DNA of 64,000 bases from Tribonema minus (Eukaryota; Sar; Xanthophyceae; Tribonematales; Tribonemataceae), in assembly GCA_017506865.1 (NCBI GenBank), contig JAFCMP010000514.1, positions 1,054,001 through 1,118,000 on the forward strand. Direction: 5' to 3'. Below are positions 5,101 to 63,425 of the stretch, in pieces. The position numbers were made by a program, and so were the translations under genes. Position 1 is the first letter of the stretch, and every line of letters starts with the position of its first letter. The notes beneath the pieces were generated by a model. That model searched no databases. It saw only the letters and a list, made by a program, of their open reading frames with translations, and was not told the DNA's origin.

Positions 5101-8100
5101 CGCGCTCGTACAGCTGCTGCGCCTTGCTGCTGGAGCCGTTGTTGGGGCCCAACAAATCGCCCACTCGCACGGCGCCGCCGCCGCTGCCGCCACCTGACTG
5201 CCAGATTCCGCCGTCGGCAGCGGGAACGACCCATGGCGCAAGGTGAGACTGCGCAGCACCGGGAGCATTGGTGGCAGCGGCACCACTTCTGCCAGGCCCT
5301 GCTTGCGCGCCTGACCCAGCCGAAGCGGCTGTTGCTGTTGCTTCGGCGGCGACGGCAGCGGCAGCGGCGGCGGTGGCGGCGGCGGCTGCGGCGGCGGCAG
5401 CGGCAGCGGCGGCGTCGTCCGCCGCTGCGGCCGATTCCGGCGCTGCTTCTAGTTGAAGTTCAATCTGGCCACGCGCTGCCTCGCGAAGCCGACTGAGCAC
5501 TGCCCCCACGTCGCACTCCTGCAAACGGCAATGTCATGATGCAGTGGAAAGTAATCGAGCGTTGCGGAATGAGGACCACATCCGACACATGGTAGAGTGA
5601 CAGATTTCGGCTCCGTGCACAAACTGCACTGCCAAACTGCTAGTGTTAAGCGTACATGCACCAGTTGCACAGTGTAGGGGGCATGTCTCATGGAACCCAC
5701 AAGCGAATCAGGGACAACGAGACAGGACCCCCGCGCCCTGAGCACAGATGTCGCGTACACACACACACAAGAAGACCACACCATCACAGCAGCGCTCAGC
5801 GCCGCGCTCTTCCGCCAGCGCGTTCACCTGCAGCATCTCCACGACCTCGACGGCGCCGCGCGGCACGCCGCACTCCGCCAGGAAAGCCCCCAGGTCCCCC
5901 CCGCCGCCCCCCTCCATCGACGCCCCCGCCGCGCCCTGCGGAATCTCCACGAGCTTGTCGTACTCAACGGGCGCGGCGACGGCGGCGGCGGCGCCGGTGC
6001 CGCTGACGAGCTCGCCGAGCGCAGCGCTCAACTGTTTGCTGATTAAATCGCTCGCAGCTGCAGAATTGCCGCCGCTGGCGCCGCCTCTGACGTCCGCGGC
6101 GCTGCCGACGTGGGACAGGCTGCTGCTGCCGCCACTGCCGCCGCTGCGCGCCGCCGCTGCTGCGGGGCTCCCGTCAACGCCGCTGGCGGCAGCGGCGGCG
6201 CCTGTCAAGCCTACAACGTGAACCTTGGCAACGCGGCCCTCGCTGTCCACGTATACATCGACGTGGTGCCAGGCCGGCGCAGCTGCTGCCGGTGTTGCTG
6301 CAGCGCGCCCTGGGCTGGCGCTGCCGCTGCCATGGCCCTCAGCATTGCTGACTGCGGCGTCACCGTCTTGCGCGCTGCTACTGCTGCCGCCGCCATCATC
6401 CTCAGCGCTGCCGCCACGCGAATCGCCCGCAGCACTGCCGCCACCGCCGGCCACCGACCCGCCGCCACCACCACCAATTTGTGCCGCCTGCGCTGTTGAT
6501 TGCGCTGCGTCGTCGTTTTCGTCGGTTCCCGCGCCAGCCACTGCCGCAGCGACGCGGGCCTGCGCCTCCTCTAGCGCCATTTCTCCGCCCGTTCTCGCGA
6601 CAATCAACTTGGCGGCTGCGTCCAGCAGTGCTCCGCCGCTGCAGCGCTTGGAGACGTCCGCGCCGGCGGCGCCCTCCGCCGCTGCTGCCACCGCCGCCGC
6701 GTTGGACACCGCAGCCTGGCGGCAGATGTCATTGCGGCATTGCGTTTGGGGGTGGTTTACTGAGTGCACTTTTAAATTACTTGCATTGTGAGGGGTGCGT
6801 GTCTGCAGCTGCATGCAGGTGTATGCGGTCTGCCATTCCGATTCTGTGTGTACCAGCTCATCCTGGCCCTTGGCCATATCACTCCGGGTGTAGGATGATG
6901 ACTTGTGCGGCACGAGTCATGGCATGCGTCGTCAGTCCAATGCGCTATGTAACCGCCGGAATGGAGTGCGCGATTGGGAGTCAAACCGTAACATCACCAG
7001 CCTTCACTGTCTAACCCTAACCCTAACCTCAACCTTAGCCCTAATCCTAACCGTAACCCTAATCGCATCCCTGACCCTAATGATCGGATGATCATTGTTA
7101 GCATCTCTGTGGCCAGCGCGGGACGCAATGGGCACACGCACAAATTGCCGGACCGCTGCAGGCTTATCTCGCTTGCGCTGCGGCTAGCACTCACCCTGCA
7201 CACACAATTTCATTGGCTGCTGAGCGTTTCACACAACAGCTTCAGCTGCAGCTTTGTACTTGAAGTAGCGTACTATGACAGCACAGTGGTGTTAGGAAAC
7301 TGCTTGGGTATGCGTCGCACTGACAGCAGAATGACGCCCCACGCAAGTTCACATTCCCACGCACAACGCCGCAATCAGCTGCATGCATGCGACTTGCAGC
7401 AGCGTGCTGAGCGATGCGCACGCCGCGCCAGCAACAATTTCATATTTTAAAATGCTTCAACTCATAGTATCATGATCTCATACATCAACACAAACTTGAA
7501 GATTCTCACCCTGAAGACGTCACTCAGTTGAAGTTTGTGCTCGCCCAGCAGCTGCCTGAGCCGTGCGCCCGCCTTGCCGACGGTGCGCGAGTCTATCGTC
7601 AGCTTGGAGAGGCCGTCGCCGCGGCACACTATCTGCGCCGGCACCTGCGCAGCGCATAGAGGCAAAGGTATGTAGGTATGTAGCGTGTGAGGTTTTGTTC
7701 TGGGGTACTGAGACATGAGGGCAAGGCGTCGACACCTGCGCAGCCAAAGGCATGCAGGTCTGTAGGCGTGTAAGTTCTTGCTTGGGGGTGTTGACACATG
7801 GGGGCAAAGGCGCCGGCACCTGCGCAGTGCATGGGGGTGAAGGCATGTATGTATGCAGCGCATGTTTTTTCTTGGCAGGGGTATTGAGACACGGGGGAAA
7901 CGTTTGCCCCCCAGTCTCGACAGCAAAGGCGCCGGCACCTGCGCAGCGCATGGGGCGAAGGCATGTATGTATGCAGTGTGTGGTGTATAGCACGGGGTGT
8001 TGAGACATGGGGGCAAAGACAGGCATCCGACTGTGCACAGCGCAGGGGGCGAGTGTGGTGGTAGGGGGGTTGTGCGCATAGTGCGCACCGCAGAGGGTGT

Positions 8101-8457
8101 ATGTGGTGGTGGTGGAGGAGTTGTGGCCGTTGAGACGTGGGGGGCAAAGAAACATGTCGCGGCGAATCACTAAGACGTGTGGGGGGGTTGTGCGTGTCAA
8201 ACAAGGGGGGGGAAGGCAGGCACCATTGGGCATGTCATTGTCAACCAGGAGTCTGGCACGTCCGCCTGATCTGCTCTACAAGAGTAATGGGGCCCGGCAT
8301 GCGACGCTCCTGGCGGTGACTATGTACCAGCCGCTGCACCAACATGAGTCCGCTCAATTTATTCATCATTGTTGAAGTATGCGCATCCACCCTGAGTGCC
8401 GATGCGCTGAGCACTGAAACACGCTGATGATCACCTGCTGGCTCTGCGCCGCCTCCT

Positions 8458-8488
<31 letters not shown>

Positions 8489-8878: not shown

Positions 8879-8909
<31 letters not shown>

Positions 8910-9466: not shown

Positions 9467-9498
<32 letters not shown>

Positions 9499-10760: not shown

Positions 10761-10793
<33 letters not shown>

Positions 10794-14019: not shown

Positions 14020-14069
<50 letters not shown>

Positions 14070-21238: not shown

Positions 21239-24200
21239 TCAAGGCATCGTGTACGTCGCCTCCTGCATCGGGCCCAGGTTGGGCTCCTGCGAATTGCCGT
21301 GGCGCCGGTGCTTGACGCCGACGTCGTACAGGCGAATGTTCTCCTTCTGCCGCGTGAGCGCGAGGGTGCCCTCTACGGCGCCGCCGCGCGGGACCCAGTG
21401 GGGGACCTGTCAGGGGGGCGTAGAGTGGTAGGATGGAATGTATACTGCGCGCTTGTGTACCTTGTGGTGCGAATCATCAGCACTGTCGCCATCGCTGCAA
21501 GAGAGATTTGGCGCATGCATGCCCACCGCAGACCGCAGATGCTGCTCACCAAATAGGCACCAGAGCGGTGTCGACGGACGTGAAGAAAGGACTCCCCTGC
21601 GTCACATGACAGCTCGCAATTGACTCGCAGTGGATTTGAAGCAGAGATCACAATGTTCAGACCGGGCTGTTGAGACATGCTCGGCATCCTAATACATATA
21701 CTGTACACTCAGAGCTTGTTGACCGCTATGTACTGCTGTCGTTCATGTGACATGACACTGCTGCAGCTCCATTGAAACAACTGCCACACATCACCGTAGG
21801 CACCATGCTGTTGCGACCTGGCTTTACTTGGTTTGGTTGCTGGTGTGCTGTGGAGTCTGCCCAGCCTCTGACCGTGATACTGACACACTACACACTAGAG
21901 TACTCACACAGGCCCTCAAGCTTCAGTTCAGGCCTTCATTGGCTTTGGACTATACTCCTGCATGGAACCCCCCCCCCCCCCCCCTCAAGAATTGCATTTT
22001 AACTTCAACACTTTGCTTTTCACGGCATGCGACGCACCTCCAGGTAGAAGACCTGCTGTCCCCAGTGCGTGTACCCGTTGTCGGGTGCAGTGCTCAGCAG
22101 CACGGGGACGGGCAGGGGGTTCGCCTCCGTCCCCCTGAAGTCCGCCGTGAACCACCCCGCGAAACCGCTCACACGGCAGTCGTGCTCCACGTTTATTCTG
22201 AAGGGCGTCTCCTCCACGCCTTGGACGTCCTGGAGAATGTACGCAAACGTAGAGCCGATTGCCAATACGTAGCTGTTGGTATGGGGTGAGGGGGTTAGTC
22301 AGTGAAGCGACATGCTCTTGAAAATCCAATGGCAGTGCAGCTTGTTGCGCAATTTGGAGCACCCTTTGTCAAACACTGTAGCATGCTCTAGTGACTGGAA
22401 TGATGTTTGTGACCACTTTTAAATCTGCACAATCAATGTCTGCATGCAATCGCAGCTGATCTGCCGATTCTGCACGCACAACAATTATATAGCCCGCCAA
22501 TTGGGCAACAATCATACACTCCGCCAATTGGGCAGCTCTGTATGTCAAGAGTGTGACTGCACTTCAATAGTAAGAACTACAGTGTATGTATACACAACAA
22601 AGGTGGCTGCCACGGCCCGCGCATAGTCAGCATGCAGCCGGGCACGACTCCATGCGGTAGTGATCACTATTTCAAATGTTGATGCGACTCGTACGAATGG
22701 CCTATTCTGCAGCACACTGTTTTGTGCTCATGTGTCCAGCGGCATCATACTTCAGAAGTATATTCCTAACATTGTTATGCTGCGTTAAATGTCAAAGTGC
22801 AGCCTACGCGCTCTTGCTAGTTGCAATATAAAGACTCACACCATGTCCTAGCCGAATATTGTTGCCACAAGGGCAGTGAGCTTCTCTGATCACTTGTTTG
22901 AGGGGCTGTTTCCTGGAAGTTATGAATAGCTCCAACTTATGTATGAACAATAGTTCTGATTACTGATGCGCTTCACAATAGCCCCAGTACCTGGTTCGTA
23001 AAAACACTGCACGTGTCATTGTACCAGCACAGGCAGCTGGAGTGAAATGTAATGAATATGAAATGTCCAAGCGTCACAAAACCCCTCACCACCCCTGACA
23101 TCATCTCCAAAACCCAGCACTATCTCATTCGCTGTAAATAGCTTTGGTGTGTTCTTGCTGCCAAAAGTGATGCCCTTAACTTCTGTGGCCTTCATTGTCC
23201 TGTTTGATTAGTTTCATTACATACGAACAAATCTGCATGGTTAATATCACGCATGACTTTCAAGACACAATAATACCTTAAAGTACAACACCTCACACCC
23301 CCCCCCCCCCCACCTGGGTGGTTCATGACATGAAGTTACCGCTCAACAGCAACTTTGGGCATGTGCGCAGAGTGCTAGACCATTTGTGAAGTCTGCCACG
23401 TGCACTTGTCATCTGCATGGGCCTGCACATGGGCTTGTTTTGCTTAAATGCGCAATTGATTGATGTGTCCCACAAAAAAACATACTTGAAGTATGATTGA
23501 TGTGTCCCCCCCCAAAACATACTTGAAGTATGTTCTTGTGTAGCCTCACAAAAAAAAGTACTTCAAGTATATGTTTGTGTGTAGGCTCACCTCCAGGGTG
23601 CAGGTGTGCTTGTCAAAGTGCTTGATCACGGCCCCCGTCCCAACGCACTGGTAAGTGTCACCTAACGCTCTAGTCTACGATCTTTTGATTCGTTTCCATA
23701 AGTGAATTGTGTAGCCTCACAAAACGAAGTACTCCAAGTTTATGTGCTTGTGTAGCGTCTAGACTCACCTCCAGGGTGCATGTGTGCATGTCAAAGTGCT
23801 TGATCATGGCCCCCTGCCCAACGCACTGGTCCGGCTGCAGCTCCGCCCAGAACGAGGAGAGTATGTAGTATCCCTTCTGCTCCTCCTCGTATACGCCCTC
23901 CAGCACGTTCATGTCGCAGTCATAGTACTGACGCATCTCCCGCTTGAACCGATGCCATTCCTGGTGAGGGGAGAAGCGGCAGAAGCGCAGCATGCACATG
24001 AGAATTGAACAATTTTGAAACAGTTATTGGAGCCAACGCATTTTATCGTCTGCAATCAAGATGGCCTTACCGTCATCGTTCCAGTGCATCGCTTCAACGA
24101 CAACAACAGTGCCGTTACAACATTAAGAGTTAGTTGCGCAGACAGGATTTGCAAACCAGAAACCAATTACACTCTGAAACAGACCAAAAGCCAATCCCAC

Positions 24201-25735: not shown

Positions 25736-28700
25736 ATGCTTCGGCTGGCGTCGAGGAATTGTGTAGCGGCGAGGCATCGCCACTTGCTGGCCAGCTCACA
25801 GCGCTGCTTCTGGGGCAGCTGGAACCGCGACAAGGTTAGTGTCTCACACGTTGACTCACACTCCCTGTGTGATACGGAGTTGCCCTGTACACCTCTGACA
25901 TGCGTGTTGGATAGTGCATGTGCCCGTGGATGCAGCAGCAGGAATTAATCCAGTGCATCGTGATCATGCTGTGTTCACCATACTTTCTGTGTGCGATGCG
26001 CTTCTTGCACGTCAGCCCCCGCCATCGGACAACGGCGCGCCAGACAATGCACGCAGCGATGGCGGCAGCACCGGCAGTGGAGGTTCTGGTCAGGAAAACT
26101 CTCAGTCAGCATCGCCTCCTCCAAGCAGCAACACCCCGATGAAAATCGGAGGAGCCCCTCACTACCCCTGCCTGATAGGGCTGCCGGTGCTTCGCCGGCC
26201 GCTGTTTCCCGGACACGTCCACCCTTACCAAGTCAAGCATCCGGATGTTCTGGATGCAATCATTAAAGCCAAGGAGGAAGGCAACCCATACCTTGGCGTG
26301 TTCCTTCGCAAAGACAGCGCCAAGACGTTCGGCAGCCATGCAGGCCACGAAGCGGGAGCTGAACTTGTGGGTGGAGACGAGTCTTACCCAGAGCTGATCA
26401 CAGATCCAGACGAGATCTACCACGTCGGCGCGCTGGCGCAGGTCCACCACATCACGTCGCTGGAGACAGGAGCGCAGCTGCTGCTGTCGAGCCGCCAGCG
26501 CATCAAGTTCAGCAAGGTGGTGTCGTTGGGCCCGCCGTTACAGGTACGCACCCCAGCGCACTAGTTGTGTTTGGTAGCAAATGAGCGCAGCCAGAGCCAT
26601 ATCGCACATTGATGATGCTCAGCAGAGCTGCAGCGGCGCCAGGCAGCCGCAGTAGTGATGATGTGCGCCTTGAGAGACTTACGGCGTGAAGTGCTGTCAC
26701 CCTCGATGCCGCACTGCCGAGGAACTTTGAAAGCACGACAAACGGCACTTCACTGATGAAAACCGAATCAAAAGATCGCAGAGCTCTAGGTGACAAGGGA
26801 TGGATAGCCGCAAGTGCCTTTCACCAATAACTGGTGTTGCTGAGGCTAATGACAGTTTTTGCACGTGCTGCATACCTCTGCCACTGCCTGGGTGTAGATT
26901 CTAGTCAGTGATAGCGTACTGCCGCTGCATACTATCTGTGCCAGTGATGATGGCTGCAGTGTACGACCACCATCACCATGTTTGCGTACCTGCGGTATGT
27001 ACTGCGCAGGTGGAGGTGGAGAGCTCGCTGGTGGGGGACCCTTATGATGCCAGCTCGGACGTCATCAAGGCGTACTGCCAGGAGATTCTGGCGACGATCC
27101 GGGACTTGGTTAAACTCAACCCGCTACTGCGGGAGAACATCACCTTCTTCACGCAGACCATCAACATGCAGGTGAGGACACTCTTTGCCACTGACATTCT
27201 GGGGAATGCATTTAAAGACCATAGGGCGGCTGTTGCGTATCACAACGATTTCTGTTTGGTGCATCGTACACGACATGCTGTGACACTTATGCTTCGGAGT
27301 ACGCAGAACATCATATTAGACTGTTGCGGTTGGTGATGACTGCAGTTCGCTGTATCGTTTGGTCCAGCTGTGGAACACCCGTGTGCAGTAAGTCACGTCC
27401 TGCAGCCACCACCAGCAGCGTCATATTGTGTAGAGGCCGTTGGTGTCAAGAAGCCAGCGCCGACGCTGACAGGCTCAGAGCGCGTGATTGCTGCTCTGCG
27501 GAGCCCCCATGTGCAGAGTCTGCGACAGCAGCATCGACTTCAGTGCTGACTCAGCACTTCAATTTGCGCATTGCGACTCCAAAGTTGAACTCAAACTTTG
27601 TGTTGCATCACATTGAAGCGGGCGGCAAGCGCTCACATGTCCTGAATGGTGCGACTGGCACGCAGCGCAGGACCCGTTTCTGGAGGCGGACTCTGCGGCG
27701 ACCATCACCACGGCGGACGGGCATGACTTGCTCAGCACTTCAATTGCACACACTGCGACGTCAAAGTTGAAGTTGACCTTTGTGCTGTACTACATTGAGC
27801 GGGCGGCAAGCGCTCACATGTCCTGAATGGTACGACCGAAACGCAACGCAGGACCCATTTCTGGTGGCGGACTTTGCGGCGACCATCACCACGGCGGACG
27901 GGCATGACTTGCTCAGCACTTCAATTGCACACACTGCGACGTCAAAGTTGAACTTGACCTTTGTGTTGTACTACATGGAGCGGGCGGCAAGCGCTCACAT
28001 GTCCTGAATGGTACGACCGAAACGCAACGCAGGACCCATTTCTGGTGGCGGACTTTGCGGCGACCATCACCACGGCGGACGGGCATGACTTGCTCAGCAC
28101 TTCAACTGCACACACTGCAACGCCAAAGTTGAACTTGACCATTGTGTTGTACTACATTGAGCGGGCGGCAAGCGCTCACATGTCCTGAATGGTACAACCG
28201 AAACGCAACGCAGGACCCATTTCTGGTGGCGGACTTTGCGGCGACCATCACCACGGCGGACGGGCACGACCTGCAGGCGGTGCTGGAGGAGATGAACGTG
28301 GAGGAGCGGCTGCGGATGGCGCTGGAGCTTATTAGCAAGGTTTGTGAAAGGGGAACAGGCGTATGGAATAGAATGTGAAGTTTTTGCGGAGAGATCTTGG
28401 GAAGCAGCAGCGTAGTGCCATTACGTGTTGTCTGACTCAGGCCAACAACATGAGGCACGTAGCTGAAGCAGAGCCCTAGCTGGTAGGCGATACAGAGAGG
28501 AGCGGCTGCGGATGGTACTGGAGCTTATTAGCAAGGTTCGTGAAACGGAAGTGGTGGCGCGTCGTGTATGCGTGCGCTGCGCAAGTATGGGTGGAGTAGC
28601 AGTGCGCCAAAATCGCGGTGCTCTTCGTGACATGCAGTGGGGGAGTAGGTACATGGTACATGCTTCAAAGCAGTGCCCGATGCATTTGTGCAATGTAGTA

Positions 28701-31700
28701 CATGCCTTGCAGCTTTGGACTGGTACTTCATGGGGTTGTGTCGTATGCGAGGAGCAGCCACCGCTGCTGCTGCTTAACGTAGCCATGGAAAGGGTCTAGC
28801 CATGGTAACGATCTAGGAGCAGCATCAACGAGTCACAGTCAACATGAAAATGAGTCAAAGTCAGACGTGCAACCATCTTGCAAGGTGTGGTCTTATTTTG
28901 TGGATGCTGTAGGTGTCCAGCTGCAAATGAAGCCACTTGCATACTTCAGAAGTAATTGAGGTCTTATTGATGGACAGCCATGGCGGCGCACTTGGAAGGC
29001 ACGCAGACGCAGCTGGCGGTGTTCATTGTCATGTCAAGTGCGAGCATGTGCATGCGGTTCGGGCATGACGGATTTGTGCGCAAGTCAAAGCACTCTCTGA
29101 GAAAGCTGGTGGGGGCTCACCTGGTCCCAGAAGTCTCAGCCTTTGAGTGTCGTGAGGGAAATTGTAGTGTATTCCGATGATGTAGACGCCAATGTGCACG
29201 CATCAATTGCCAAGTAATGGCCATACGTGCTGCAAGGTGCTGTGCGATGTTCAGCTCCAGCTTGCTGCCAACTTCAAATGCTGGCACACCTCGCCAGTTC
29301 CTTCAGCCCTAGTGCAACTGCTAGGGCTAGCCTAGGGTTTTTCCCATCCCTACTTCAGCATCCTTAACGTAGCCATGGAAAGGGTCTAGCCATGGTAACG
29401 ATCTAGGAGCAGCATCAACGAGTCACAGTCAACATGAAAATGAGTCAAAGTCAGACGTGCAACCATCTTGCAAGGTGTGGTCTTATTTTGTGGATGCTGT
29501 AGGTGTCCAGCTGCAAATGAAGCCACTTGCATACTTCAGAAGCAATTGAGGTCTTATTGATGGACAGCCATGGCGGCGCACTTGGAAGGCACGCAGACGC
29601 AGCTGGCGGTGTTCATTGTCATGTCAAGTGCGAGCATGTGCATGCGGTTCGGGCATGACGGATTTGTGCGCAAGTCAAAGCACTCTCTGAGAAAGCTGGT
29701 GGGGGCTCACCTGGTCCCAGAAGTCTCAGCCTTTGAGTGTCGTGAGGGAAATTGTAGTGTATTCCAATGATGTAGACGCCAATGTGCACGCATCAATTGC
29801 CAAGTAATGGCCATACGTGCTGCAAGGTGCTGTGCGATGTTCAGCTCCAGCTTGCTGCCAACTTCAAATGCTGGCACACCCCGCCAGTTCCTTCAGCCCT
29901 AGTGCAACTGCTAGGGCTAGCCTAGGGTTTTTCCCATCCCTACTTCAGCATCACGACGATTCAGGAAGAGCGAGAGTGGACGGACCTGCTCTTGCATTGT
30001 GACCCCCCTTGCATCAGTGCTCAACCTCAACGCTCAACCTCCGCTCACGGCACCACCGCAGGAGCGCGAGCTGAGCCGCCTGCAGAAGGAGATTCAGAAG
30101 CAGGTGGAGGAGAAGATGACGCTCCAGCAGCGCAACTACTTCCTCATGGAGCAGATGAAGAGCATCAAGAAGGAGCTCGGGCTGGAGAAGGACGACAAGG
30201 AGGCGCTGCTCAACAAGTTCAGGGAGCGCATGGAGGCGTGCGAAGATCTGGGCAAGGATGCGCGCAAGGCGAGCCTAACTTCAACTTACCTGAGTACTAA
30301 TCTCAACCCTAACCCTAGCCTTAACGGCGAGAACGCCCTGTTCAACAAGTTTAAGGGGCGCATGGAGGCCAGCAAGGACCTGGCAAACTACGGACGGCGA
30401 GTGATTCAGTCATCCCAAAACTAGCCCTAATCCTAATCCTAGTTGTAATCGTAATGGCGACGTAGCGCTGACATGAAAGCAAAATTGAACAGCACAATGT
30501 GCACTTCAAGCATCACGACGCAGTGCGCGCAGCAAAGATAAGCATATTCCACGCCTCTCCACACATCGCGCCTGCGTCAAGCTACGTCCAACCCTAAATT
30601 CAAAGAAAGAACTAACCGTAACCCAAAAAGTATTGATCGTCATGCTCTCTACATAGGCATGCAACATGGCAGCACCGCTGTTACATTCGTTGGGCGAGCT
30701 TGCCTTCCGCGTCTCCCTGCCACATTCGAAAGCCCACATGTGCTCCTCAACACTGTTGAGCAGCGTTGAGCGATTGGGGGGTTGGGGTTGGTGTCAGGAT
30801 TGAGGTTGGGGTTAGGGTTAGGGTTGGTGTGAGGGTTAGAGCTGGGCTGGCCTGCCTCCTAACGCAGACCCCTGAAGCCCTCCAACCACTCCCTGAACTT
30901 GTGAGAAGCGCGCGTTGTTGCCATACGCATTACGATGATGACTTATGGCCAGGCTCGCCTTGCGCGTGTCCTTGCGCTCCTTGATTCACTCATGGTGGGC
31001 GGTCACAATTTCAAGTGGTCGTAATACCGTCCCTAACCCTAACCCTAATTGCAACTCTCATGGCGAAGTGCTGCTCAGCAAGTTCAGGAAGCGCGAGGCG
31101 AGCCTAATGCAAGTGTTATTGAATAGAGCAAGGAGGCGCTGCTGAACAAGTTCAGGGAGCGCATGGAGGCGTGCAAAGATCTGGGCAAGGATGCGCGCAA
31201 GGCGAGTCTAACTTCAACTTGACCAGAGTACTAGTGCTAGCCCTAAACCCAACTTCAATGGCGAGAAAAAAGTGGCGAGTAAGCCTCACTTTCATGGCGA
31301 GAACCCTGTTCAGCAAGTTCAGGGAGCGCATGGAGGGGTGCGAGGATCTGGGCAAGGAGGCGCGCAAGGCGAGTCCAACTTCAAGCGGTCGTAACAACCT
31401 CTAACCCTACCCTAACCCTAATTGTAACTCTCATGGCGAGGGCTGCTCAGGGAGCGCGAGGCGAGCCAAAGAAAGACACGTGCACGGTGTGCGTGCAGGG
31501 TGTCCACGTTGGTGTCACCGATGGCGAACGTCATTCGTGACCATCTCCATTGCACGCAATGGCGCTGTTGCTAATGCCTGAAGTTCTTGATCTACGCACA
31601 GTAATTATGGCAATCAGCTTTGCAATGATGTAAGCAGTGTGTCACTGAAGGACTGCACATTCATGGCTTCTGGCAGGTAGCGGTGAAGTTTGTACCTGAC

Positions 31701-43525: not shown

Positions 43526-46500
43526 ATGACGCTGATAGGGCACATCGGACCTGGACTGTTTTTGGCAACTTGGGGGCTGTTCATCCATGCGCAGGCGTGC
43601 CGATGCCGCTTGCTGATGGCGCCTCGCACTGTATACATGATCAAAGTGAGTGGCCGTGACTTCCTTTGCTGGTGGCTGTTGGGGGGACACGTGCATGTAA
43701 AGCTTGGCGATGAGACGCCTTCAGGTCATGCGGAATTTCAAAGCTGCTCTCAAGTCATGCATGCGCTATTGCGGCAGCCAGTGGGTGCCTAATTGAGCCC
43801 GCTTTGCAAGTGGCTACCTTGAGCAGTTGTGTGGTCGAATTTTGCAAATTCAGCGAGCTCAGCGGCATCCCGAGCAAGCGATTCGATGTAGGTTGTCCAA
43901 TGAACAATCAGCAATGTGTGTGAGACTTGAGCAAGCTCACAACAGCAAGCCCGGTCAAGCTCACTGCTAGTTCACAAAAGCAGTACCTTCGCTGGCTCTG
44001 TGCCAACAGGTCTTGATGCCAACACAATGAGGTTTGTGCAGCCCAGCTATGGTCCTATGCAGCTGCAATCACTGCAGCAGCAGCTGCTGCAAAAGGCTCA
44101 TGCTCATCTGAATCACAATGCTGCTGCAAGAAGGACTGCAACTGACACTGCACGATGTGCTGTGATCAGCTTCGACAACATAATGTTAAACTATCAGATG
44201 CTGCAATGTTTTCAGATCGTACGTGGCTTCTTTGAAAAAGGCACTTCGTGGCTTACCGGGCGTTGGCGAGTGTCTTGGCACCAATGCCAATGCTGCTCGA
44301 TGTTCAACAACCGCTGGTTGAGCGGCAGGCGTCACAGACATTACGCTCGTTTTGCGAACCCGCAAGTTCAGTCGCAGTTCGTGCGGTTCCATGCGCAAAG
44401 CGGCGTCCTCCCCCGCCAACAGGGAAGCCTTCATATGATTATTGTAATGCCGCCCGTGTGATGGTCGCATGTGTAGTGTTTGCGGTGTGGCGGCACATGT
44501 GCGTGTTACCTTTACTTCTCAAGAGCTCAGCGCACGTCAATTACCTGTCGTGCATCAGCACCTGCCACACTGCTCCACAAACACGTGACCACTCGACCAC
44601 TCAAAGCAAGTACTGTGTGCATTGGCCCATTTTGCAAGGAGTCGTCGCAACTTCACGATCATGTGCGCATGTCCCCCCCTACCCCCCCCTCCCTCTTCCT
44701 CACAGTTCTATGGAGCCATGGCGTTTGTGGTGCCGGCGGCGACGATAGAGCTGGCGCAAAATTTCGGCGCAACTCACATGCCCAATCTGCACCACTTCAC
44801 GCTCTACGCCATCGGCATGTTTGACGTGAGTGCAGTTATGCAATGCATAGAGCACATCCACAGAATGTAAATCAGTCATGTCTTTGTAGCTGCAACACAT
44901 CGCGGGATGCAGCAGCTTCCCCATGTGTTTGTTGCAGCGCACACATGTACAGAGAATAGGTGCCTCACACAAAGTCATGCATTTGCATGTTGATCAAACG
45001 AACAGCGACTGCACCATGGTGGCTGTGTTGAGTGGTGGCTCGGGAGCTGCGCGCATGTCTTCACGTCACACAGTTGAAGTTGAACTTGCGGCCGGCTGGA
45101 GATGCTCAGATCTGGTGTCAGTTATAAGTGCACTCCTTGCCAGATAGAAGTACGTTCACAACCGTTCAACATAGTCTGTGTGATTGATGCAGAAGCTTGC
45201 TGGTGCTCCCTCTCCCCCCCCCTATGCAGGGGCTGTTGAATCTGGCGATGGCGAAGGGCTTTCCCGTGCCGGTGCCGCTGGGTGGAGTGTACGAGGCAGC
45301 TATGCTGGGGTGCTTTGGCATACTGTTCCAGGCGCACAACACGGGGGCTGCCATGTTTGTGGGCTTCCACAAGTGAGGGTTAGGGCTAGGTTAGGGCTAG
45401 GATTAGGGTTAGGGGTGAAGGCGTGTGGGAGGCAGCCATGCTGGGGTGCTTTGGCATACTGTTCCAGGCGCACAACACGGGGGCTGCCATGTTTGTGGGC
45501 ATCCACAAGTGAGAATATGGTCATTAGTTGGATGGGGCCAGGGCTTGGGTTATCTTACGGTGTGGGTTAGGGTCAGTGTCTCAAGGTGGTTTGCGAGGTC
45601 TAGGCCCATGGCGACATCAAGCGTCGCTACATACAGGAGGTGCTTGCTGCATTCTTACTTTCACGCTAGGCTGCGGAGTCTGGCTGTTGTACGTGCAATT
45701 TTCCAGAAGCTGCTGGCAACGTCACTCTTGAGAGCGAAGTCAGCAGGTGCCTTGCATGAGACGTTGATCGACTCACCGTATGTCTTCCACTTGTACGTCA
45801 ATGTTAACCCCAACCCTAACTTCAGAAGGTGGCGCGGCATGCACCTGTTCACTCAGGGCCACGCAAGTATGCGACCCTAACTCCAACCCTAAGTACGCAC
45901 TGTCCGCCATATGCGTACAAGTCAGGGCCCGCGCTATTGCCTGCTCCCCCCCCCCCCCCCGCCAGCCGCTGCTGTGCTTTGCACTGCTGCTGATTCGTTG
46001 GCTTGGTATATATGTACAGTAAAAATACTATCTGTCATCCATGCCTACAATTCAGAGCACATGCCATTGCCCGACGCACAGCGCCGGGGAAGCTGCCGCC
46101 ATCGCCTGACACCCATCACCTGCTGCCCCCCCCCCCCCCCCCCCCTGCCGCAGGTTCATGACACCGTTGCTGTGGATTGGAGCGCTGCTGGTTTTCTTGC
46201 TGGCAATATCGCACGCCGCGCACGCGGAGTCGCGCGCCGGCACGCGATACATACCCAACCAGGCCGTGCAGGTGCGCACTTGAAGTAGAGCTTGAAGTAG
46301 AGCGTGCAGTTGCGGTGCGTCGCCTGTGAGAGATACGTACGAATCAGGTGCACACTTGAAGTAGAGCTTGAAGTTACGTGCAGTTGCGGCGTCGTGTGTA
46401 GGAGATACATACCCGACCAGGCCGTGCAGGTGCGCACTTGCAGTAGAGCTTGAGGTAGAGCGTGCATTTGCGGTGCGTCGCCTGTCAGAGACATGTACAA

Positions 46501-48923
46501 AAAGCAGGCTGTGCAGACGCGCACCCAAAGTAGAGCGTGCGTTGCGCGCAGTTGCAGTGTCGCCCGCAAGCGCAACATCAGCAAGCACTTCAATTCTGGT
46601 AACTTCAACTGTTGACACTCCAACACAGTGGTGCGTGCTGTGACGTACCCTTGTATCACAGTAGTCGTGCAGTGCTCACAACTGCTCATCCTCTAGTGCG
46701 ACGCAATATCGGTGCTAAAGCACACTCGTCTGGCGACGCAATGGGTGACCATGCTTTCGTGCTCGCGATGGCGATGCTCGTCAGCGATGCATGGCCAGAT
46801 GAATGAATTACCTAATGAAGCAACCTAATCACCCCATTCGCCCCACAGTTCATGCTCGCGCTGGCGATGCTCGTCAGCGGCCGAGATGAATGAATTCTCT
46901 AATGAATCAATCAATTCACCCCCCTCGCCCTGCAGTTCATGCTCGCGCTGGCGATGCTCGTCAGCGGCCAGTGGTTCATGAACATAGGCTTCGGCTACTA
47001 TCTCTACGGCAACAAGGGGGGGCTGTACGGGACCAAATCGGGGCTGCCACTGGCCGGCAGCAGCGACGGCGGCGGCGGCGATGGCGACATGCAGATGAAG
47101 GGCATGGATGAGGGGGAGAGTGCGACAGCAGAGCTCAGCATCTACCTGAGCTTTCACGTGGTTCTCGCTACGCTGGTGAGTGATGCGTCCGTCAGTTGCG
47201 CAGTGCTGTGCGCGTTGGTATTGGGGCGAACTTAGCGTGGCATCGCCTCTGTAGCTGTTGTTGGGACTGCCGCGCTGCGCTGTCAACCACATAGGGTAGG
47301 TATCGCGGTGATGCATATGTACATACCCAACGGTTACGCCCTGTTTGTGTCACATGCTCGCGACTAGTGCACATTGTTTGAGGTGTAGATGTAACCAATG
47401 CGCGATGTTCTGACCCGACACTCGGGCCGCAAGCAGACAATTGAAGCGGAAGGATCCACCGCATGGGTTTCCCCAGCAATCGAAACATTGAGCAAGCTGC
47501 CCTTGGCTCTGACACCATGCAGTGCTACCATCACTAACCAACACTCCGCCTTGCTCAAAACCGTCACGCCGCGCAGCTGCTCTGCATACAGTATGCGACG
47601 CTGCGCCACATGGTAGTAGTGTTTGTGGGCGGTTAACTGCTGTAACTGTAACTACGAGCAGACACGAGCCACAGCTGAACACGGAATAAGCCTACATCAT
47701 AACAGCAACTACCCTATCTAAATCGATCAAACACCAACGGTTTCCCTGCTTGAAACTGTCGCGCCGCGCTGCTGCTCTGCATACAGTACGCGTCGCTGCG
47801 CCACGTGGTTGCAGTTTTGTGGGCGGTTGTAACTGTATTCGTGAACAGGCACGAACCACAGCTGACCAAAGAACAAGGCTACATGTACATACTTCAATAG
47901 CAGCGACCTCATTAGTAACCATCACCCCCTGCTCAAAACTGTCGCGCCGCGCAGCTGCTCTGCATACAGTACGCGACACTGCGCCACGTGGTATCAGTGT
48001 TTGCGGGCGGTTTGTAATCTGCTGCAACTGTAACTGCGAACAGACACGAGCCACAGCTGAACACGGAACAAGCATACACCATATGTAACAGCAACGTGCT
48101 TATTGGAATCGATCAATCACCAACGGTTTCCCTGCTTGAAACTCTCGCGCCGCGCAGCTGCTCTGCATACAGAACGCGACGCTGTGCCACGTGGTTGCAG
48201 TTTTTTGGGCGGTTGTACTGTATTCGCGAACAGACACGAACCACAGCTGGCCACAGAACAAGGCTACATGTACATACTCCAATAGCGGCGACCTCATGGG
48301 TAACCATCATCCCCCTGCTCAACCCTGTCGCGCCGCGCAGCTGCTCTGCATACAGTACGCGACCCTGCGCCACGTGGTAGCAGTGTTTGCGGGCGGTTTG
48401 TAATCTGCTGCAACTGTAACTGCGAAGAGACACGAGCCACGGCTGAACACGGAACAAGCATACACCATATGTAACAGCAAGGAGCTTATTGGAATCGATC
48501 AATCACCAACGGTTTCCCTGCTTGAAACTCTCGCGCCACGCAGCTGCTCTGCATCCAGTACGCGACGCTGCGCCACGTGGTTGCAGTTTTGTGGGCGGTT
48601 GTAACTGTAGCTGCGAACAGACACAAACCACAGCTGACCACAGAACAAGGCTACATGTACATACTCCAAAATAGCAGCGACCTCATCAGTAACCATCGCC
48701 CCCTGCTTGAAAATGTCGCGCCGCGCAGCTGCTCTGCATACAGTACGCGACGCTGCGCCATGTGGGCATGCTGGAACCAGAGGACGAGCAAGAAAGCGCC
48801 GCCGCCGGCAGCTCCTCCAAGGATGCCAGCTTCCAGATGCTCCCCCTGGCGCGTTCCACAGACTCAGAGCCGTTCCTGCACCGGCCCGCCAGACCGAGTC
48901 CCCTGGACTCTACCGAGGTTTGA
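43526..48923 (+). CDS. TMEM45 / DUF716 family multi-pass membrane protein
   Basis: Six exons, 43526-43645, 44706-44825, 45230-45372, 46154-46271, 46936-47175 and 48744-48923 (TGA), join in phase to 306 aa. The family signature is present in order. The N-terminal GHIGPGLFLATWGLF matches GHxxPGxxF..GLW. LHHFTLYAIGMFDGLL comes next, then FQAHNTGAAMFVGFH, where family members have a histidine-bearing helix. QWFMNIGFGYYLYG and a final LSFHVVLAT helix complete it. About seven hydrophobic segments are visible. Residues about 206-240 form a Gly/Asp-rich loop between helices, and the last 50 residues are a polar tail. The molecular role of the family is poorly known. The first intron is assumed to join MIK to FYG; a missed exon is possible but phase does not require one. 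Confidence 0.85.
45376..45515 (+). repeat. TTAGGG-type tract and a copy of the 3' edge of TMEM45-like exon 3
   Basis: Directly after the real donor (45372/45373) comes a degenerate GGGTTA tract (45376-45416). A copy of about 75 bases of the exon end follows, with donor GTGAGA at 45508/45509, 136 bp downstream of the real one. The copy has a single obvious change near its end (CATCCACAA for CTTCCACAA). Confidence 0.93.
46272..46560 (+). repeat. Copies of the 3' edge of TMEM45-like exon 4
   Basis: The exon end GATACATACCCAACCAGGCC, then GTGCAG and the donor GTGCGCACTTG, recur. There is a good copy with boundary 46429, a partial one at 46347 and a diverged one near 46520. The intron part of each unit repeats TTGAAGTAGAGCTTG and GTGCAGTTGCGG. 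Confidence 0.88.
46755..46935 (+). repeat. Copies of the 5' edge of TMEM45-like exon 5
   Basis: TTCATGCTCGCGCTGGCGAT, then GCTCGTCAGCGG with a CCACAG acceptor at 46848/46849, lies 87 bp before the true exon start at 46936. A more diverged copy lies at about 46755-46790. Use of the first copy would run into a stop (GAATGA) after ten codons. Confidence 0.9.
47570..48743 (+). repeat. Six-copy tandem array of the 5' edge of TMEM45-like exon 6
   Basis: The unit carries GCTCTGCATACAG (acceptor) and the exon start TACGCGACGCTGCGCCA. Extra exon starts are at 47592, 47787, 47970, 48173, 48356 and 48559, ahead of the real one at 48744. Spacings are 195, 183, 203, 183, 203 and 185 bp. The alternation suggests a two-unit higher-order repeat of about 386 bp. 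Only the last copy continues into the open terminal exon. Confidence 0.95.
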
Positions 48924-48993: not shown

Positions 48994-48998
48994 TGTAA
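48994..48998 (+). terminator. TGTAA polyadenylation signal
   Basis: TGTAA occurs 71 bases after the TGA of the TMEM45-like gene, the usual green-algal signal at the usual short distance. A five-base word can occur by chance. Confidence 0.5.
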
Positions 48999-51117: not shown

Positions 51118-54100
51118 TCACCGCCCAAAGAAGGCGAGGCCGCTGCTGCCGCTGCCGCCGCCGCCGCCAACACGCGATGTTGCCTCTGGCGTGGCGAGCA
51201 CTGCTGGCGTGGCGGCAGCAGCAGCAGCAGCATCGTCCGCCGCTGCAGCAGCAGCGGCGCGCACCGCCGCGGCGGCGCCGGCGTCGCCGAGATAGAACTC
51301 GGCCTCCAGCTCACGGAGCAGCGCTGCGTCGCAGGGGATGGCGCGCGAGCGCGCGAGCAGAGCGTCCGCGCGCAGCACCTGTGAAAGTGCACAAGCATAT
51401 GGGGTTGTGTCAGGCGCGCAGTGCGCTGTAGCGATGCATGCGGTGCGAAGCGAGTAGAAGCAGTTGGTGGATCGCCGGTGGTAGCGGGAGGCGCGGCGGA
51501 TTCACAGTCATTCTGTTGCAGGAACGTCACCTCTGCTGTTGCAGGAACGCCACCTCTGCCACGAAGTCGTCGGGCGGTGATGGCTGACGCACGGCGGCGA
51601 CTGAGATGAAATCTCTCGTGACATGACTATCACTCTACACTTCACAAGAATAGTACTTCAAGCAAGTATGAATTGTTTTCTGGAAGTACAAAGGTGGCTT
51701 CCCGGAAGAGGCGTCGCCTCCGCCAATTCGTCGTCAGCGGCGATGGCGGACGCGTGGCGCGCTAATGACATGCATTCAAACTTATCATGATAGTAATTTG
51801 TCTACTGTAAGAAACGTCACCTCAGCCAGAGAGTCGTCGTCGGCGATGACGGATGCGCGGCGGCGTGCGCTCGCTGGCAGCACATCGACTAAGATACCCC
51901 CTAACTAGAACCCCTGATGACATGACGATCACTCTGTAGTTATCATGAACACTTGTTCATTTCATGAATGAAAGCAGGTTCTTTCTGGAAGAGACGTCAC
52001 CTCCGCCAGGGAGTCGTCCGCGGCGATGGCGGAAGCGCGGCGGCGCGCAAATGACATCACTCCCAGCATGATACTTTCGAAGTATGGTACTGTTGTAATT
52101 TGTATACTGCAAGCGGCGTCACCTCTGCCAGGGAGTCGTCGGCGGCGATGGCGGACGCGCGGCGGCGCGCGCGCGCCGGCGATGCCCCAAACAGCAGCGC
52201 GCGCGGGCAGCGCATCGCGCGCAGCACGCCCTCCATGGGCAGCGGCGTGAGCTGCGGCGCGAGCTCGATGAGCACTGCCGCGGCGACGCGCAGCAGCGCG
52301 GGCCAGCGCTCGGCGACAAAGAGGTCCAGCACGCGCGCCGCCGCCGTGCGCCTGGGGCGTTGAGGAGTGAGATAGGGGGGTGTGAGTGTGTGTGCGTGAG
52401 GGGTGGGGGTGTGGGGGGTGAGGGGTGAGGCAGGGGGCGCCGTGCGTCTACGCATGTGCAAATGAATGAAGGGGGTGGGGGGTCATCCGAACGTGTCGTG
52501 GCACTGAAAGAGCGTGATGTGACGGTACTGCTCGAAGTGCACGGGCACCTCTACAGGAAGTACTTCTACCCAGCAGTCGAGGTAATGCGCATGGCTGAGC
52601 CGAGATTACAGCGCAGCATAGCTTATCCGCTCATGTTGTGGCACTGGCAATGCGTGATCAACAGTTACATATCTGGAGTACCTGCGCACTTTTACTTCAA
52701 GCACGCAGCAGCACGGCTCAGCAGAGGCTACAACGCGGCGTGGCTCACCCAAACGTGTCGTGGCACTAAAGAAGCGTGATTAACATACGCTTCTTGAAGT
52801 ATATTCACTTCAAGTACACACAAAGTATATACACTTGAAGAACTTCAGATACACAGGCCGCATGGCTGCTCACCCGAATGTGTCGTGGCACTGGAAGAGC
52901 GTGATGAACCATCGACTCGCAAACATGCCCAGGCTGACACCGACCACCGCTAGGTGCGATGTGAGGTCTGGCGCGTGCGTCTTGAGCAAGCGCTGCAGAG
53001 ATTATCAGCCGAAAGTGCAATAGTGAAAGGGGGGGTAAAGAAAGGGGGGTCAGATCATGCAGAGATATGAAAACGAATTCAAATATCGTAGAGCTCTACG
53101 TGACAAGGGATGGTTAGCCGCAAGTGCCTTTCACCATAAACATACGAATTGTGCAATCGGGTGTGTGTGTAGGGGGGAGGTCAGCAATGTGAGTCGGCCG
53201 ACAAAGGCGCACCGATTCACCGCCCTCTGGCTGCAAGAGCAACCATGAACGTCAAAACCTGCACCAAGAGGTGTTCAAATCAGTAATCACGTTCAAACTT
53301 CAACCCATTGTGTACCGTAAGTGACACGGAAACATTGCTAGAGCAATGGAAACAGGGCTAGCATTTGAAATGGTTGAACAAGCCACCTCCAGCGCAAACA
53401 AAGCGCAAACTCCAAGCAGCGCAGCACTTCGCACCCCACAAACTCAGGTGTAGTCATTATTATACACTCGATGACAAATGAAAAAAAAAAGTGTTCAAAG
53501 GACATTTGGAATAGCGCAGCACTGCTGCAACGCACCTCCAGCGCGAACAGCGCAAACTCCAAGCAACGCAGCCCAGGTGCTGCAGCCCACCTACAAAGCA
53601 AACTTAGCAAGCACTCAAATACGGCAGCACTGGTGCTGCAGCCCACTTTCAGCGCAAAGAGAACCAAGGACTACACAGTGCTGTGACTCACCTCCAGTGC
53701 AAACAGCGCAAAATCCAAGCAATGCAGCACCTTGTTACATAAACTCAGGACTTCGGAGTAGTCATTACACGCTTGACAACTTACTCATGTTCAAACAGTA
53801 CTTCAACTAGAGCAGTACAGCTGTGACTGACCTCCAGCGCAAACAGCGCAAATTCCAAGCGGTGCAGCCCAGGCGCCCACACCCCCTCCATCCCCAGCCT
53901 GTCGCTGATTCCCACCAGCGCCCAAAACGCCGTCTCCTCGTCGCCCCCCGCCGCCTCCAGTAGCGCCAGGCCAACAAAGTTCATGCCCTGAGCAGCGGTG
54001 CAGAAGACGGCATGTGAGAAGGGGGGGAAAGGGGGTGTCCAGGGCGACTACGCAAGTCAGCGGGGGGGTGTGGCTATTGCGCCGCAGCAGCAAGACGCAG

Positions 54101-60068: not shown

Positions 60069-63000
60069 TCAACCGAAGCTCAACACCTCGCTGCCGCCCT
60101 CGGTGCGCTGCACCGCGCGCGACGGCGCGTCGTAATCCCCCGACTCCCCTCCCTTCCCCTCATCGAAGCTGCCCCACTTGCGCCCCGCCGCCGCGGAGCC
60201 CAGGGGAAGGCGCGCCGCCCCCCCGAGCCCCCCGCCCCCCCCCTCCCCCTCTCCGGCGGCGGCAGCAGCAGTGCTCGCCACGCTGAGCGCCTGCAGCAGC
60301 GCCTTCTGACCGCCGACGTTGTTGGCGTGGCGCTGCTGCTGCTGCTGCTGCGCCCGCGCCGCCGCCGCCGCCGCAGACTGCGCGGAGAAGCTGCCGTCCG
60401 AGGGCGCGGCGTTCTCGGCCGAGGGTCGTGGGGTCGTGGGCGCGAGCCCCCCCTCTGCGCCGCCGCCGCCGCCCCCCTCCTGGTTGAGCATCTTGAAGCG
60501 CACGAGGCGCCGGAAGATGTGGTGCAGGATGTGCTTGGGCTCTGCGGGGGAGCCCTCGGGGAGCTCGCCGATGACGCCCAGGATCTGTCGAGGGGGGGAG
60601 GGAGGGGGGAAGGAGGGGGTGAGGGGGGGGGGGGGGCGACTCTGACAACGGCATGGTTACATGTGACGCGTTGTGTGTGCCCCGCGTATTTGTGACTTGG
60701 TGCGGTTGTGAGTGCCCCCGCGGTGTGGTTTCCTGTGGTGGGGCGGAGTGTGCCTGTGTGAGAGTGTGGGAGGGGTGGGGGTGGGGGACGAGGCACCAGC
60801 ATTGCAGCGGCAAACTGGCACATGTCTCTGTAGCAAGAACAGCGCTACTGGATGTCGCCACCGCCGCCGGCGCACTTGCGCATAAGGTACTCTCAGCTCT
60901 GTGTGCTTGAGGGAGCAGCTGGGCACTGAGTGGTGCTCGCAGAGGCCTGACCAAAGACATCATCACCCACACCGCCATATATAAACGCAGCGCTTCTCTT
61001 GTTTTGTAGAAAGCGCTACAGCGGTACGTCACCTCCCCACTCTCCTCCATGTAGCCATCGCGATCGTCGCTGCCGGCGCGCGTTTGGATCCATGCAATGA
61101 CAACGTCACCACCCGCACTTCCACAATACAGCAGCTCTTACGCTTCGTAACGAAGCACACAACAGCGTAGCGGCAGCGCAGCATCACCTCTCCGCCCTCC
61201 TTGATGTTGTATATACTCAAGGGCATCGCTGCCGGCACACTTATCAGTGAGCTGCAACGACAACACCACCACCCGCATCGCCACCTACAGCAATTATCTT
61301 CTTCGCTTCGCAACATAGCACAGCGCAGCGCAGCGGAGCATCACCTCCCTGCCCTCCTTGATGTAGACCTCAAGGTCGTCGCTGCCGACGCACTTGTTGA
61401 ACAGATATGACGACAACATCGTCACCCACTCTTCCTCAAATACAGCACCTCGTTCGCTTCGTAACATAGCTAGTACAGCACAGCACAGCGCAGCGCAGCT
61501 GAGCGTCACCTCGCCGCCCTCCTTTATGTGGTATTCGAGGTCATCGCTGCCGGCACACACGTTGAACACATGCACTGTATTATCACCACCCACACTTCTA
61601 CATATACAGCACCTCGTTCGCTTCGTAACACAGCACAGACACAGCACAGCACAGCATAGCGCAGCTGAGCATCACCTCGCCGCCCTCCTTGATGTAGTAC
61701 TCGAGGTCGTCGCTGCCGGCGCACTTGTTGGTGAGCTGCGCCAGCCGTATCGCGTCTGACGCAAAGTGCTCGTCCAAGTCGAAAAGATCCAGCGGCGGCG
61801 GCGGCGGTTCGCGCGGCGCGGGGGGGAAGACCGCAGGGTTGAGGGGGGGCAGGGGGCACTCGAACGTGGGGGGGATGAGCGTGAGGGGCTCATGCTTCAC
61901 GTCCAGCTGCTCGTACAGCGCCACCGCCTCCGGTATGACGTCCATGTCGAACTGCAAGATGAAGTTTGGTCAGGGGGCAGGCGGTTGGGGGGGGGGGTAA
62001 TGATGGGCATGGCTTACAGATACGGTGTGCCTGTAGGTATGCGTGTATGCATGTATGAGCAGCAGTAACGCGACACTGCCGGTGCGATGCAGCTCCCGAC
62101 ATGGACATCGTTTGCAACTTCTGCAGGGCAACGGACAGCGGCAAGTGCAGGTCAATGAGAGCATGGCAGCAGCTGTCGTGCTCCGTGCCTGGCGCCGCCT
62201 ACAGCGCCGCGCCCTAGAAAAGAGTCACCTCGTGATGTCCGCGTTGAGCGCTGAAGCGCAGACGCGATCGTGCTGTGTCGCACGCTCATGCTTTTCTGTC
62301 CACGAGGTGACGCAGAGGCTCTGGCAGGCCCCGCGCTGTTGGAGGTAATCAGGTACGGTGTCTGCCTCGTGTGAATGGGCAGGACCGGAACGTGCCGGCC
62401 CCACGGCCCACTTGAGCGTTGCTCAACGTCCTGGATGCCCCAATCGGTTTCTTTGGACTGGTCTGCACTCATCTGCAGTGATGATGAATCCATGCATGAG
62501 TTCAGCAGTGCTCATCATAAACGAGTTAACATCAGAGCTCTGCGCGGCAGCGCCTCCGCCTTGCGAACGTTTCATGTGCATTCATGTGTGAATTGTGCCT
62601 GCCTTGACAAGTTCTCGTTGAAGAGCTTGGTGAAGTCGCTCGACAGCTCCTCCGTCTCCTTCATTTCCATGTCCAGTTCATGTGTCATTGGAATTCATGC
62701 ATGAATTCAGCAGTGCTCACCTTTGAACAAACTTTCATACCAAAAAGAGCTTGGTGAAGTCGCGTGGCAGCTCCTCCGTCTCCTGCATCTTCACTAGAAG
62801 TTCATTTTGATTTCATGATGAATTCAAGTGTGAATTCAGCAGTGCTCACCTTGAACGAGTTCTCGTTGAAGAGCTTGGTGAAGTCGCGCGGCAGCTCCTT
62901 CAGAATTGCTTGGTGATGTTGTCATGCCATATTCATGTTTGAATTGAGGGTGCTCACCAGAAGTCCATTTTAATTCATGATGAATTCATGCGTACATTCA

Positions 63001-63146
63001 GCCGTGCTCACCTTGAACAAGTTCTCGTTGAAGAGCTTGGTGAAGTCGCGCGGCAGCTCCTCCGTCTCCTGCAGGCAGCAGCGCAGCCTGTCCGCGAGCG
63101 CCTCCGAGTTGGGCACGCGCGTGTACTCGCTGATGTCGTACTCTCG
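60069..63146 (-). CDS. IFT52: Intraflagellar transport protein IFT52, C-terminal exons (partial)
   Basis: IFT52 is a core IFT-B subunit needed to build cilia. Three exons are in the window: 63146-63012, 61951-61676 and 60584-60069 (TGA), all phase 0, giving 308 residues. The conserved IFT52 C-terminal order is plain: PRDFTKLFNE, then YEQLDVKHEPLTLIPPTFE, then PPLDLFDLDEHFAS, LAQLTNKC, DLEYYI and, in the last exon, ILGVIGEL with HILHHIFRRLVRFKMLNQE. In other species the protein stops soon after this. Here a Gly/Ala/Gln-rich tail of about 130 residues follows. The N-terminal exons lie beyond 64000. The presence of this gene implies a ciliated organism. Confidence 0.93.
61030..61675 (-). repeat. 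Four copies of the 3' edge of an IFT52 exon
   Basis: ATCACCTCGCCGCCCTCCTT, then GATGTAGTACTCGAGGTCGT (plus strand), is repeated with boundaries at 61510, 61345, 61188 and 61033. Spacings are 166, 165, 157 and 155 bp from the true boundary at 61676. Each unit also repeats CTTCGTAACA and CAGCACAGCGCAGC. Confidence 0.95.
62600..63011 (-). repeat. Three copies of the 3' edge of the 63146-63012 IFT52 exon
   Basis: GTTCTCGTTGAAGAGCTTGG, then TGAAGTCGCGCGGCAGCTCC, recurs at boundaries 62850, 62721 and about 62603, each preceded by a GCAGTGCTCACC-like donor and ATGAATTCA words. Confidence 0.93.
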
Positions 63147-63425
63147 CTGCATTGCTCAGCAGAGGGGGAAAAAAAAAATGGCGTTAAGGGTGTGTGTGTG
63201 ACACCTTCGAGTTGGGCACGCGCGTGTACTCGCTGACGTCGTACTCCCGCTGCAGCGCTCAGCGTAGGGAAAAAAAATGATGTTAAAGTGTGTGTTCTCT
63301 CGATGCATCGCTCAGCGGAGAAGGAAGAAAAATTCTCCCGTTAAGGGTGTGTGACACCTTTGCGTTGGGCATGCATGCGTGTACTCGCTGATGTCATACT
63401 CCCGCAGCAGCGCTCAGCGGAGCAA
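63147..63425 (-). repeat. Copies of the 5' edge of the same IFT52 exon
   Basis: GTTGGGCACGCGCGTGTACT, then CGCTGA.GTCGTACTC, recurs at boundaries 63249 and 63404 (103 and 155 bp apart), with the acceptor GAGCGCTGCAG and an A-rich run between units. Both edges of this one exon are thus duplicated outward. Confidence 0.92.

Follow-up and report, generated by a model that had tools for sequence, protein, structure and literature searches.

Human introns have reportedly been derived from tandem arrays by Zhuo et al. in 2007, and the groups of Puchta and Bennetzen are said to have found tandem duplications at nicks and patches. Among the described cases close to our subject is intron gain by tandem genomic duplication (PMC3443670; potato RdRp, PMC4974935), where a short duplication within a gene doubles splice-site sequence. 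In human genes of segmental duplications, internal tandem repeats have units that run across exon-intron boundaries (PMC2812944), and in C. reinhardtii and V. carteri repeat density is highest in introns, with repeats commoner towards intron ends (PMC3887541). We have analysed a stretch of 64,000 nucleotides from Tribonema minus (the window: the whole of that stretch, positions 1,054,001-1,118,000 of contig C511 in an assembly of 158 Mb and 554 contigs), in whose genes exon edges, together with the splice site and the intron flank, are repeated in the intron next to them as one to six direct and decayed copies. An earlier note had described such copies from the window's letters, and we could line them up in the LON gene, in IFT52 and in other arrays of the window. 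The note had further supposed a recurrent process that copies splice-site segments, lengthens introns and leaves decoys; this is borne out, well past the window.

Edges elsewhere were sampled by a genome search with the kinesin domain. It gave 132 exon matches, and 20 gene regions were retrieved, the strongest matches of 46 grouped by hand and thus a non-random choice. A first pass found that 18 of 83 kinesin edges (these including four edges of copy rows) score at least 24 against their own flank, compared with 1.3% for unrelated flanks. Of the 83 possible edges 71 were then used; four were removed where the matches are themselves copies, three in one locus (L050) with ambiguous splice sites, and five which have no clear splice-site call. 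With 17 LON edges, the 71 edges (from 19 regions outside the window) form a final set of 88 edges in 20 genes. LON exon ends were set by alignment to E. coli Lon, by the reading frame and by GT/GC-AG sites. Edges that stayed undefined in this way were left out: those of the first exon(s), the donor for the exon at 39873 and the acceptor for the exon that ends at 41089.

A direct copy across the splice site, no more than 1.5 kb from the edge, is present at 24 of the 88 edges. Flanks of unrelated introns gave 68 of 1760 (3.9%), and inverted orientation gave 1 of 88. The earlier note had proposed such an alignment, genome-wide and with shuffled pairs as control; on the sampled edges the excess over the control is there. 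These controls refute chance or base composition as the source of the copies; the window DNA is rich in GC. Leaving LON aside, 19 of the 71 kinesin edges have a spanning copy, all outside the window. Twelve of the 20 genes have at least one copied edge, and the 24 copied edges carry 52 copies, from one to six each. Donors are copied in 13 of 40 cases and acceptors in 11 of 48, rates that do not differ (p 0.35). In LON itself 5 of 17 edges are copied: the acceptor at 28214, with copies at -181, -362 and -543, and the donors at 28340 (+196), 30269 (+128/132, +933 and +1100), 34733 (+169) and 41090 (+181). In the last of these 58 of 60 exon bases and 55 of 60 intron bases are identical. Edge copying is therefore common in the sampled genes and is not universal, affecting about a quarter of edges, so that "almost every gene" and "the rule" for the genome, as the earlier note had it, are both too strong.

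Tables of protein matches point the same way, though they were judged by eye and are much less sensitive than the DNA comparison. Among 355 matches there are seven clear partial copies at six exon edges, each sharing one end with the adjoining exon match: 2 of 132 for kinesin, 4 of 56 for CCT/Cpn60 and 1 of 28 for tRNA-synt_1. The copies in kinesin and CCT, six in all, are also seen in DNA. Ambiguous overlapping pairs with different ends (for example on C101, C312, C190, C434, C527 and C4) were excluded. No clear partial copy was seen by eye in the match tables of HSP70 (0 of 80), Aldedh (0 of 14) or proteasome (0 of 45). Proteasome-domain matches recur at several places in G000:C223:32962-65868, which suggests tandem gene copies. 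Two Aldedh matches, G000:C521:151125-151286 and 187317-187478, lie 36 kb apart on opposite strands and have the same profile range and a near-equal score.

The copies have a characteristic form. In the LON and kinesin loci 45 of 52 spacings between successive copies fall in the range 82-196 bp, and the median is 144.5 bp. A spacing of about 145 bp is near nucleosome size. Among local pairs of at least 40 bp, 297 are direct and 28 inverted, and Tandem Repeats Finder (TRF) reports 19 arrays with units of 54-183 bp in 190,518 bases. When the window is compared with itself there are 84 direct matches with an offset below 1.5 kb and 47 with a larger one. Four of the seven closest pairs (at least 93% identity) lie head to tail: 590 bp twice (99.5%), 101 bp twice (97%) and arrays of 181 and 108 bp. 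The junctions of the 590-bp and 101-bp duplications, the two clean ones examined, both have no microhomology. Several older arrays are still legible as head-to-tail units made of an exon part and an intron part, with uneven middles. Same-strand head-to-tail units of at least 10 bp, the mark of a tandem repeat, are thus present, though some pairs are not arranged in this way. Tandem duplication is clearly at work.

Decay of the copies can be set against a neutral expectation. If the real exon is under constraint and its copy is neutral, the exon half should show fewer differences between original and copy than the intron half does, by up to about twofold, and copies should differ from each other about equally in both halves. 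Mismatch between original and copy is 13.2% in the exon half and 17.7% in the intron half; between copies it is 20.1% and 24.5% (counts are from aligned columns, and copies within one array are not independent). These ratios are close to those of one drifting partner in the first comparison against two in the second. In anchored comparisons identity is 0.84 on the exon side and 0.76 on the intron side. The exon side is the better one at 18 of 24 edges. We dropped the idea that selection keeps the exon half of the decoys: because the copy-copy rates of the two halves are close, constraint on the real exon explains most of the exon-side excess. At codon positions 1, 2 and 3 mismatch in the exon half is 10.8, 12.7 and 16.0% between original and copy, and 17.9, 20.3 and 22.2% between copies. 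A frame-breaking indel lies in the aligned exon part of 17 of the 52 decoys. The splice dinucleotide is mismatched in 5 of 50 and 6 of 52 bases, compared with 21% and 18% over the remaining intron side. This is about half, as it should be if the real site alone is constrained; AG is retained in 20 of 26 acceptor copies, and GT or GC in 23 of 26 donor copies. On balance decoy splice sites seem to be neither kept nor purged by selection, and the decoys look like neutral leftovers. Since they are not purged, inner splice sites must cost little. Weak real donors do not attract arrays, as the donor scores are alike in the 13 donors with an array and the 27 without (p 0.50).

Where duplication falls relative to exons was measured as coverage at threshold 20. 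Around the 88 edges the 50 exon bases next to the edge have 0.21; in the intron the figure is 0.11-0.24 up to base 700 and 0.19-0.33 from there to base 1200. Exon interiors have 0.016 (1057 points), with a null of 0.005. Coverage that stays flat from edge to intron is the prediction of uniform duplication with purging within exons. Copying centred on splice sites, a further claim of the earlier note, is not shown by these figures, coverage being about as high within introns as at edges; a weaker form of it, an excess of edge-touching events, is taken up below. The median intron in our set is 679 bp (35 complete introns). In six core-Reinhardtinia species intron medians are 198-343 bp (PMC8226300).

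The arrays of the window are given below. LON lies on the plus strand at about 26.2-42.3 kb and IFT52 on the minus strand at about 61-63.2 kb, both by homology; IFT52 matches a PDB chain named Osm-6-like protein, which we take to be the Chlamydomonas protein. Family matches place a RabGAP-TBC stretch near 52.9 kb and a PRMT_C stretch near 22.1 kb, both on the minus strand. The names TBC, PRMT10, TMEM45-like and gene 1 are labels of the earlier note. Its count of about 20 copied edges in five genes holds in so far as the arrays under these labels, like those of LON and IFT52, do align; the individual edges are confirmed in part.

27550..28274, plus strand: LON acceptor-edge array, four 181-bp head-to-tail units, each of about 120 intron bases, the acceptor and about 61 exon bases
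28497..28548, plus strand: decoy copy of LON donor edge 28340
28773..29952, plus strand: young exact head-to-tail duplication in a LON intron (the 590-bp pair described above)
30324..30383, plus strand: decoy copy of LON donor edge 30269 (GC donor)
31129..31267, plus strand: decoy copy of LON donor edge 30269
31306..31384, plus strand: decoy copy of LON donor edge 30269
33352..33437, plus strand: copy of LON acceptor flank 33636, with just 9 exon bases and left out of the spanning count
34865..34917, plus strand: decoy copy of LON donor edge 34733
41189..41426, plus strand: decoy copy of LON donor edge 41090, about 80 exon bases included
61019..61722, minus strand: IFT52 donor-edge array, the true exon end and four decayed copies at 155-166 bp spacing, each with a donor motif
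62570..63073, minus strand: IFT52 donor-edge array of the upstream exon (63000-63146), several copies
63101..63451, minus strand: repeats across the acceptor edge (near 63146) of IFT52 exon 63000-63146, from repeat pairs and sequence inspection
23536..23830, minus strand: donor edge (23707-23830) and copy (23536-23652), labelled PRMT10 exon 2; the PRMT_C match is on the same strand
45284..45513, plus strand: donor edge and copy in the gene labelled TMEM45-like
46756..46969, plus strand: acceptor-edge array, CACAG followed by TTCATGCTCGCG..., in the region labelled TMEM45-like
51690..52187, minus strand: donor-edge array of four copies, labelled TBC gene; the RabGAP-TBC match is near
53365..53888, minus strand: donor-edge array of four copies, labelled TBC gene
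7610..8035, minus strand as displayed: four copies of GCGCAG followed by GTGCCGGCG, interpreted as acceptor edges, labelled gene 1

A long array of units of about 183/386 bp lies at 47529-48765. Interstitial telomere-like TTAGGG/CCCTAA arrays occur along the window at 7011-7081, 30778-30839, 35317-35342, 35475-35526, 39077-39110, 45376-45414 and 58174-58220, and some of them adjoin or sit within duplicated units; the opening 200 bases of contig C14, inspected for telomere repeats, gave no useful result. LON introns at 30269 and 33867 apparently start with GC, not GT, and a tRNA-Val(TAC) gene lies at 39509-39583, between two LON exons and on the LON strand. Ab initio coding scores of the window gave nothing useful. 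Open frames of the window were scanned against families, part of them with no match, and one structure-sequence search was also without a match.

Several suggestions can be made regarding what produces the arrays. The one that we consider probable is that short tandem duplication is frequent in gene bodies, is purged in exons and is tolerated where it falls in an intron or over a single splice site. Gene bodies would then often duplicate short segments in tandem, with a spacing mostly of 80-200 bp. A unit lying wholly within an exon would break the protein and be lost. A unit in an intron, or over one splice site, would be tolerated, in the latter case because the exon body would keep an intact copy of the site at its border. 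That site would be the first copy at a donor and the last copy at an acceptor, the remaining copies becoming intron. In the LON array at 27550..28274 the protein-compatible exon start (28214) sits in the last unit. Repeated rounds could leave up to six decoys in an array and a longer intron, and the decoys would then drift neutrally. Presumably splicing uses the site nearest to the exon. Exon definition, by which a site is used with a matching partner at exon distance, may let the spliceosome ignore the decoys, because a donor decoy has no matching acceptor upstream and an acceptor decoy has no matching donor downstream. The duplications themselves might arise in break repair by end joining. 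The feature is real, widespread and unusual, and it is best read as a known type of mutation, short tandem duplication, occurring at an unusual frequency and filtered by selection.

Several observations weigh against this explanation. Three of the seven closest pairs (57, 94 and 70 bp long, identity 94-96.5%) are sharp-ended blocks with spacers of 42 to 688 bp between them that cannot be aligned; two of these pairs belong to ends of kinesin exons, the third to a donor of the window. Plain head-to-tail duplication does not predict short sharp blocks unless intron turnover is fast, yet gap openings are only 0.074 per mismatch in aligned pairs, and tandem duplication accounts for such blocks only in part. 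Where the first 40 bases of the exon part are at least 90% alike (23 copies), intron bases 0-40 are 0.83 alike and bases 40-80 are 0.68 alike (random, 0.60), a fall-off steeper than twofold. The donor +5 position is mismatched in none of 24 copies, a hint of retention. Finally, 15 of 27 duplication clusters in the 35 complete introns touch an edge (10 the donor, 4 the acceptor and 1 both), where uniform placement predicts 22.6% (p 2e-4, or p 0.037 if edge pairs are detectable for twice as long). If counting is restricted to the 600 bp next to edges, 19 of 36 clusters touch the edge; for identities of at least 80% the share is 15 of 23, and for at least 85% it is 10 of 12. The last differs from an expected share of 0.39 with p 0.002, the expected shares (0.33, 0.34 and 0.39) being hand-picked from the higher simulation runs. 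Three passive simulations gave an edge share of 0.19-0.40, and two with other settings 0.19-0.42, on random sequence with guessed rates.

Edge-touching events therefore exceed passive expectation about twofold, in small numbers. Longer survival of pairs that hold constrained exon, and the merging of overlapping clusters, explain only part of the excess. A preference for exon borders is possible, not proven. This is the opening for the strongest rival, that duplication is targeted to exon edges. Hot spots could result from positioned nucleosomes, from breaks linked to transcription or splicing, or from GC-rich exon DNA; alternatively, blocks centred on edges could be pasted nearby. The edge excess, the sharply bounded high-identity blocks at exon edges and the narrow spacing around 145 bp would all suit it. 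We nevertheless regard targeting as unlikely. Coverage has no peak at the edge, donors and acceptors are copied at similar rates, and exon interiors, a possible source for copying and pasting, are almost never copied. The excess itself depends on the simulations just described, on small numbers and on edge arrays into which overlapping clusters were merged. A broader statement would be that duplication in this lineage favours exon-intron borders, has a characteristic unit near 145 bp and is linked to exons, their chromatin or splicing, and that borders have been multiplied genome-wide as a main route of intron growth. This we offer tentatively, with more doubt than belief. If correct, border-biased duplication would give many natural tests of how the spliceosome chooses between near-identical competing sites.

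It is improbable that the copies are functional, either as alternative or mutually exclusive exon ends or as decoys kept for splicing regulation. Most copies do keep the splice dinucleotide, some exon parts are near-identical to the exon, and the unchanged +5 position of donors could be taken as a sign of use. Substitutions are spread across all codon positions, 17 of the 52 decoys have a broken frame, dinucleotide change fits constraint on the real site alone, and each copy holds part of an exon and a single splice site. On the codon-position spread, frame breaks and dinucleotide rates we rejected constrained alternative exons. Mutually exclusive exons would be whole, with both splice sites and the frame kept; what we see are partial copies with a mild third-position excess only.

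Two sources of introns are on record, introner-like mobile elements (PMC9860276) and the tandem duplication of exonic AGGT (PMC3443670), and we think it very improbable that either made these arrays. Each array copies its own exon edge, and just one of the 27 clusters touches both edges of its intron. Genome searches with three arrays argue in the same direction. LON 27550-28213 returned only itself, IFT52 61019-61670 itself and the adjacent unit, and the array at 47529-48765, to which no exon edge is assigned, itself and two short similar stretches of 39 and 51 bases on other contigs. On these locus-specific results for three arrays we rejected dispersed elements. Tandem repeats are a weak point of assemblies, and one 590-bp pair is 99.5% identical, but an assembly or sequencing artefact is scarcely credible when most copies differ by several to 30%, have indels of their own and are present on many contigs.

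If a quarter of edges are self-copied, mostly with intact motifs, splicing must pick among near-identical competitors in many genes. The decoy arrays would then be a natural experiment on exon definition and on the order of transcription, and edge duplication a concrete, datable path to longer introns. There is a practical side as well: decoys endanger gene prediction and protein-level searches, in which some are scored as extra exons.

How does this compare with the known systems? Among the matches listed in a search of full-text literature covering few subscription papers, no title or start of an abstract reports that exon edges are copied into introns throughout a genome. In intron gain by tandem duplication, a duplicated exonic AGGT gives a new intron (PMC3443670; PMC4974935), whereas here existing introns lengthen and existing sites multiply; an intron gained in that way would lie between two copies of one exonic segment, and just 1 of the 27 clusters in our 35 introns touches both edges. 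Introners (PMC9860276) have a similarly large effect on the introns of a whole genome. They copy themselves into many genes and leave near-identical introns there, while the arrays that we searched are locus-specific, with two short matches elsewhere. The repeats of green algal introns (PMC3887541) were sought as units of 1-50 bp; units of 80-200 bp that overlap exons are beyond that search, and exon-edge copying is not mentioned in the available parts of the paper. Small duplications made by break fill-in and end joining (PMC8355091) resemble ours in being short, tandem and nearly blunt at the joins. They were shown in human and mouse cells, and here two clean junctions were examined. The human internal tandem repeats (PMC2812944) share with our 24 edges the units spanning an exon-intron boundary. 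They concern a few recent primate genes and 27 intron modifications; here about a quarter of sampled edges is involved, and most copies are decayed. The kind of event is known, and its scale and place are new.

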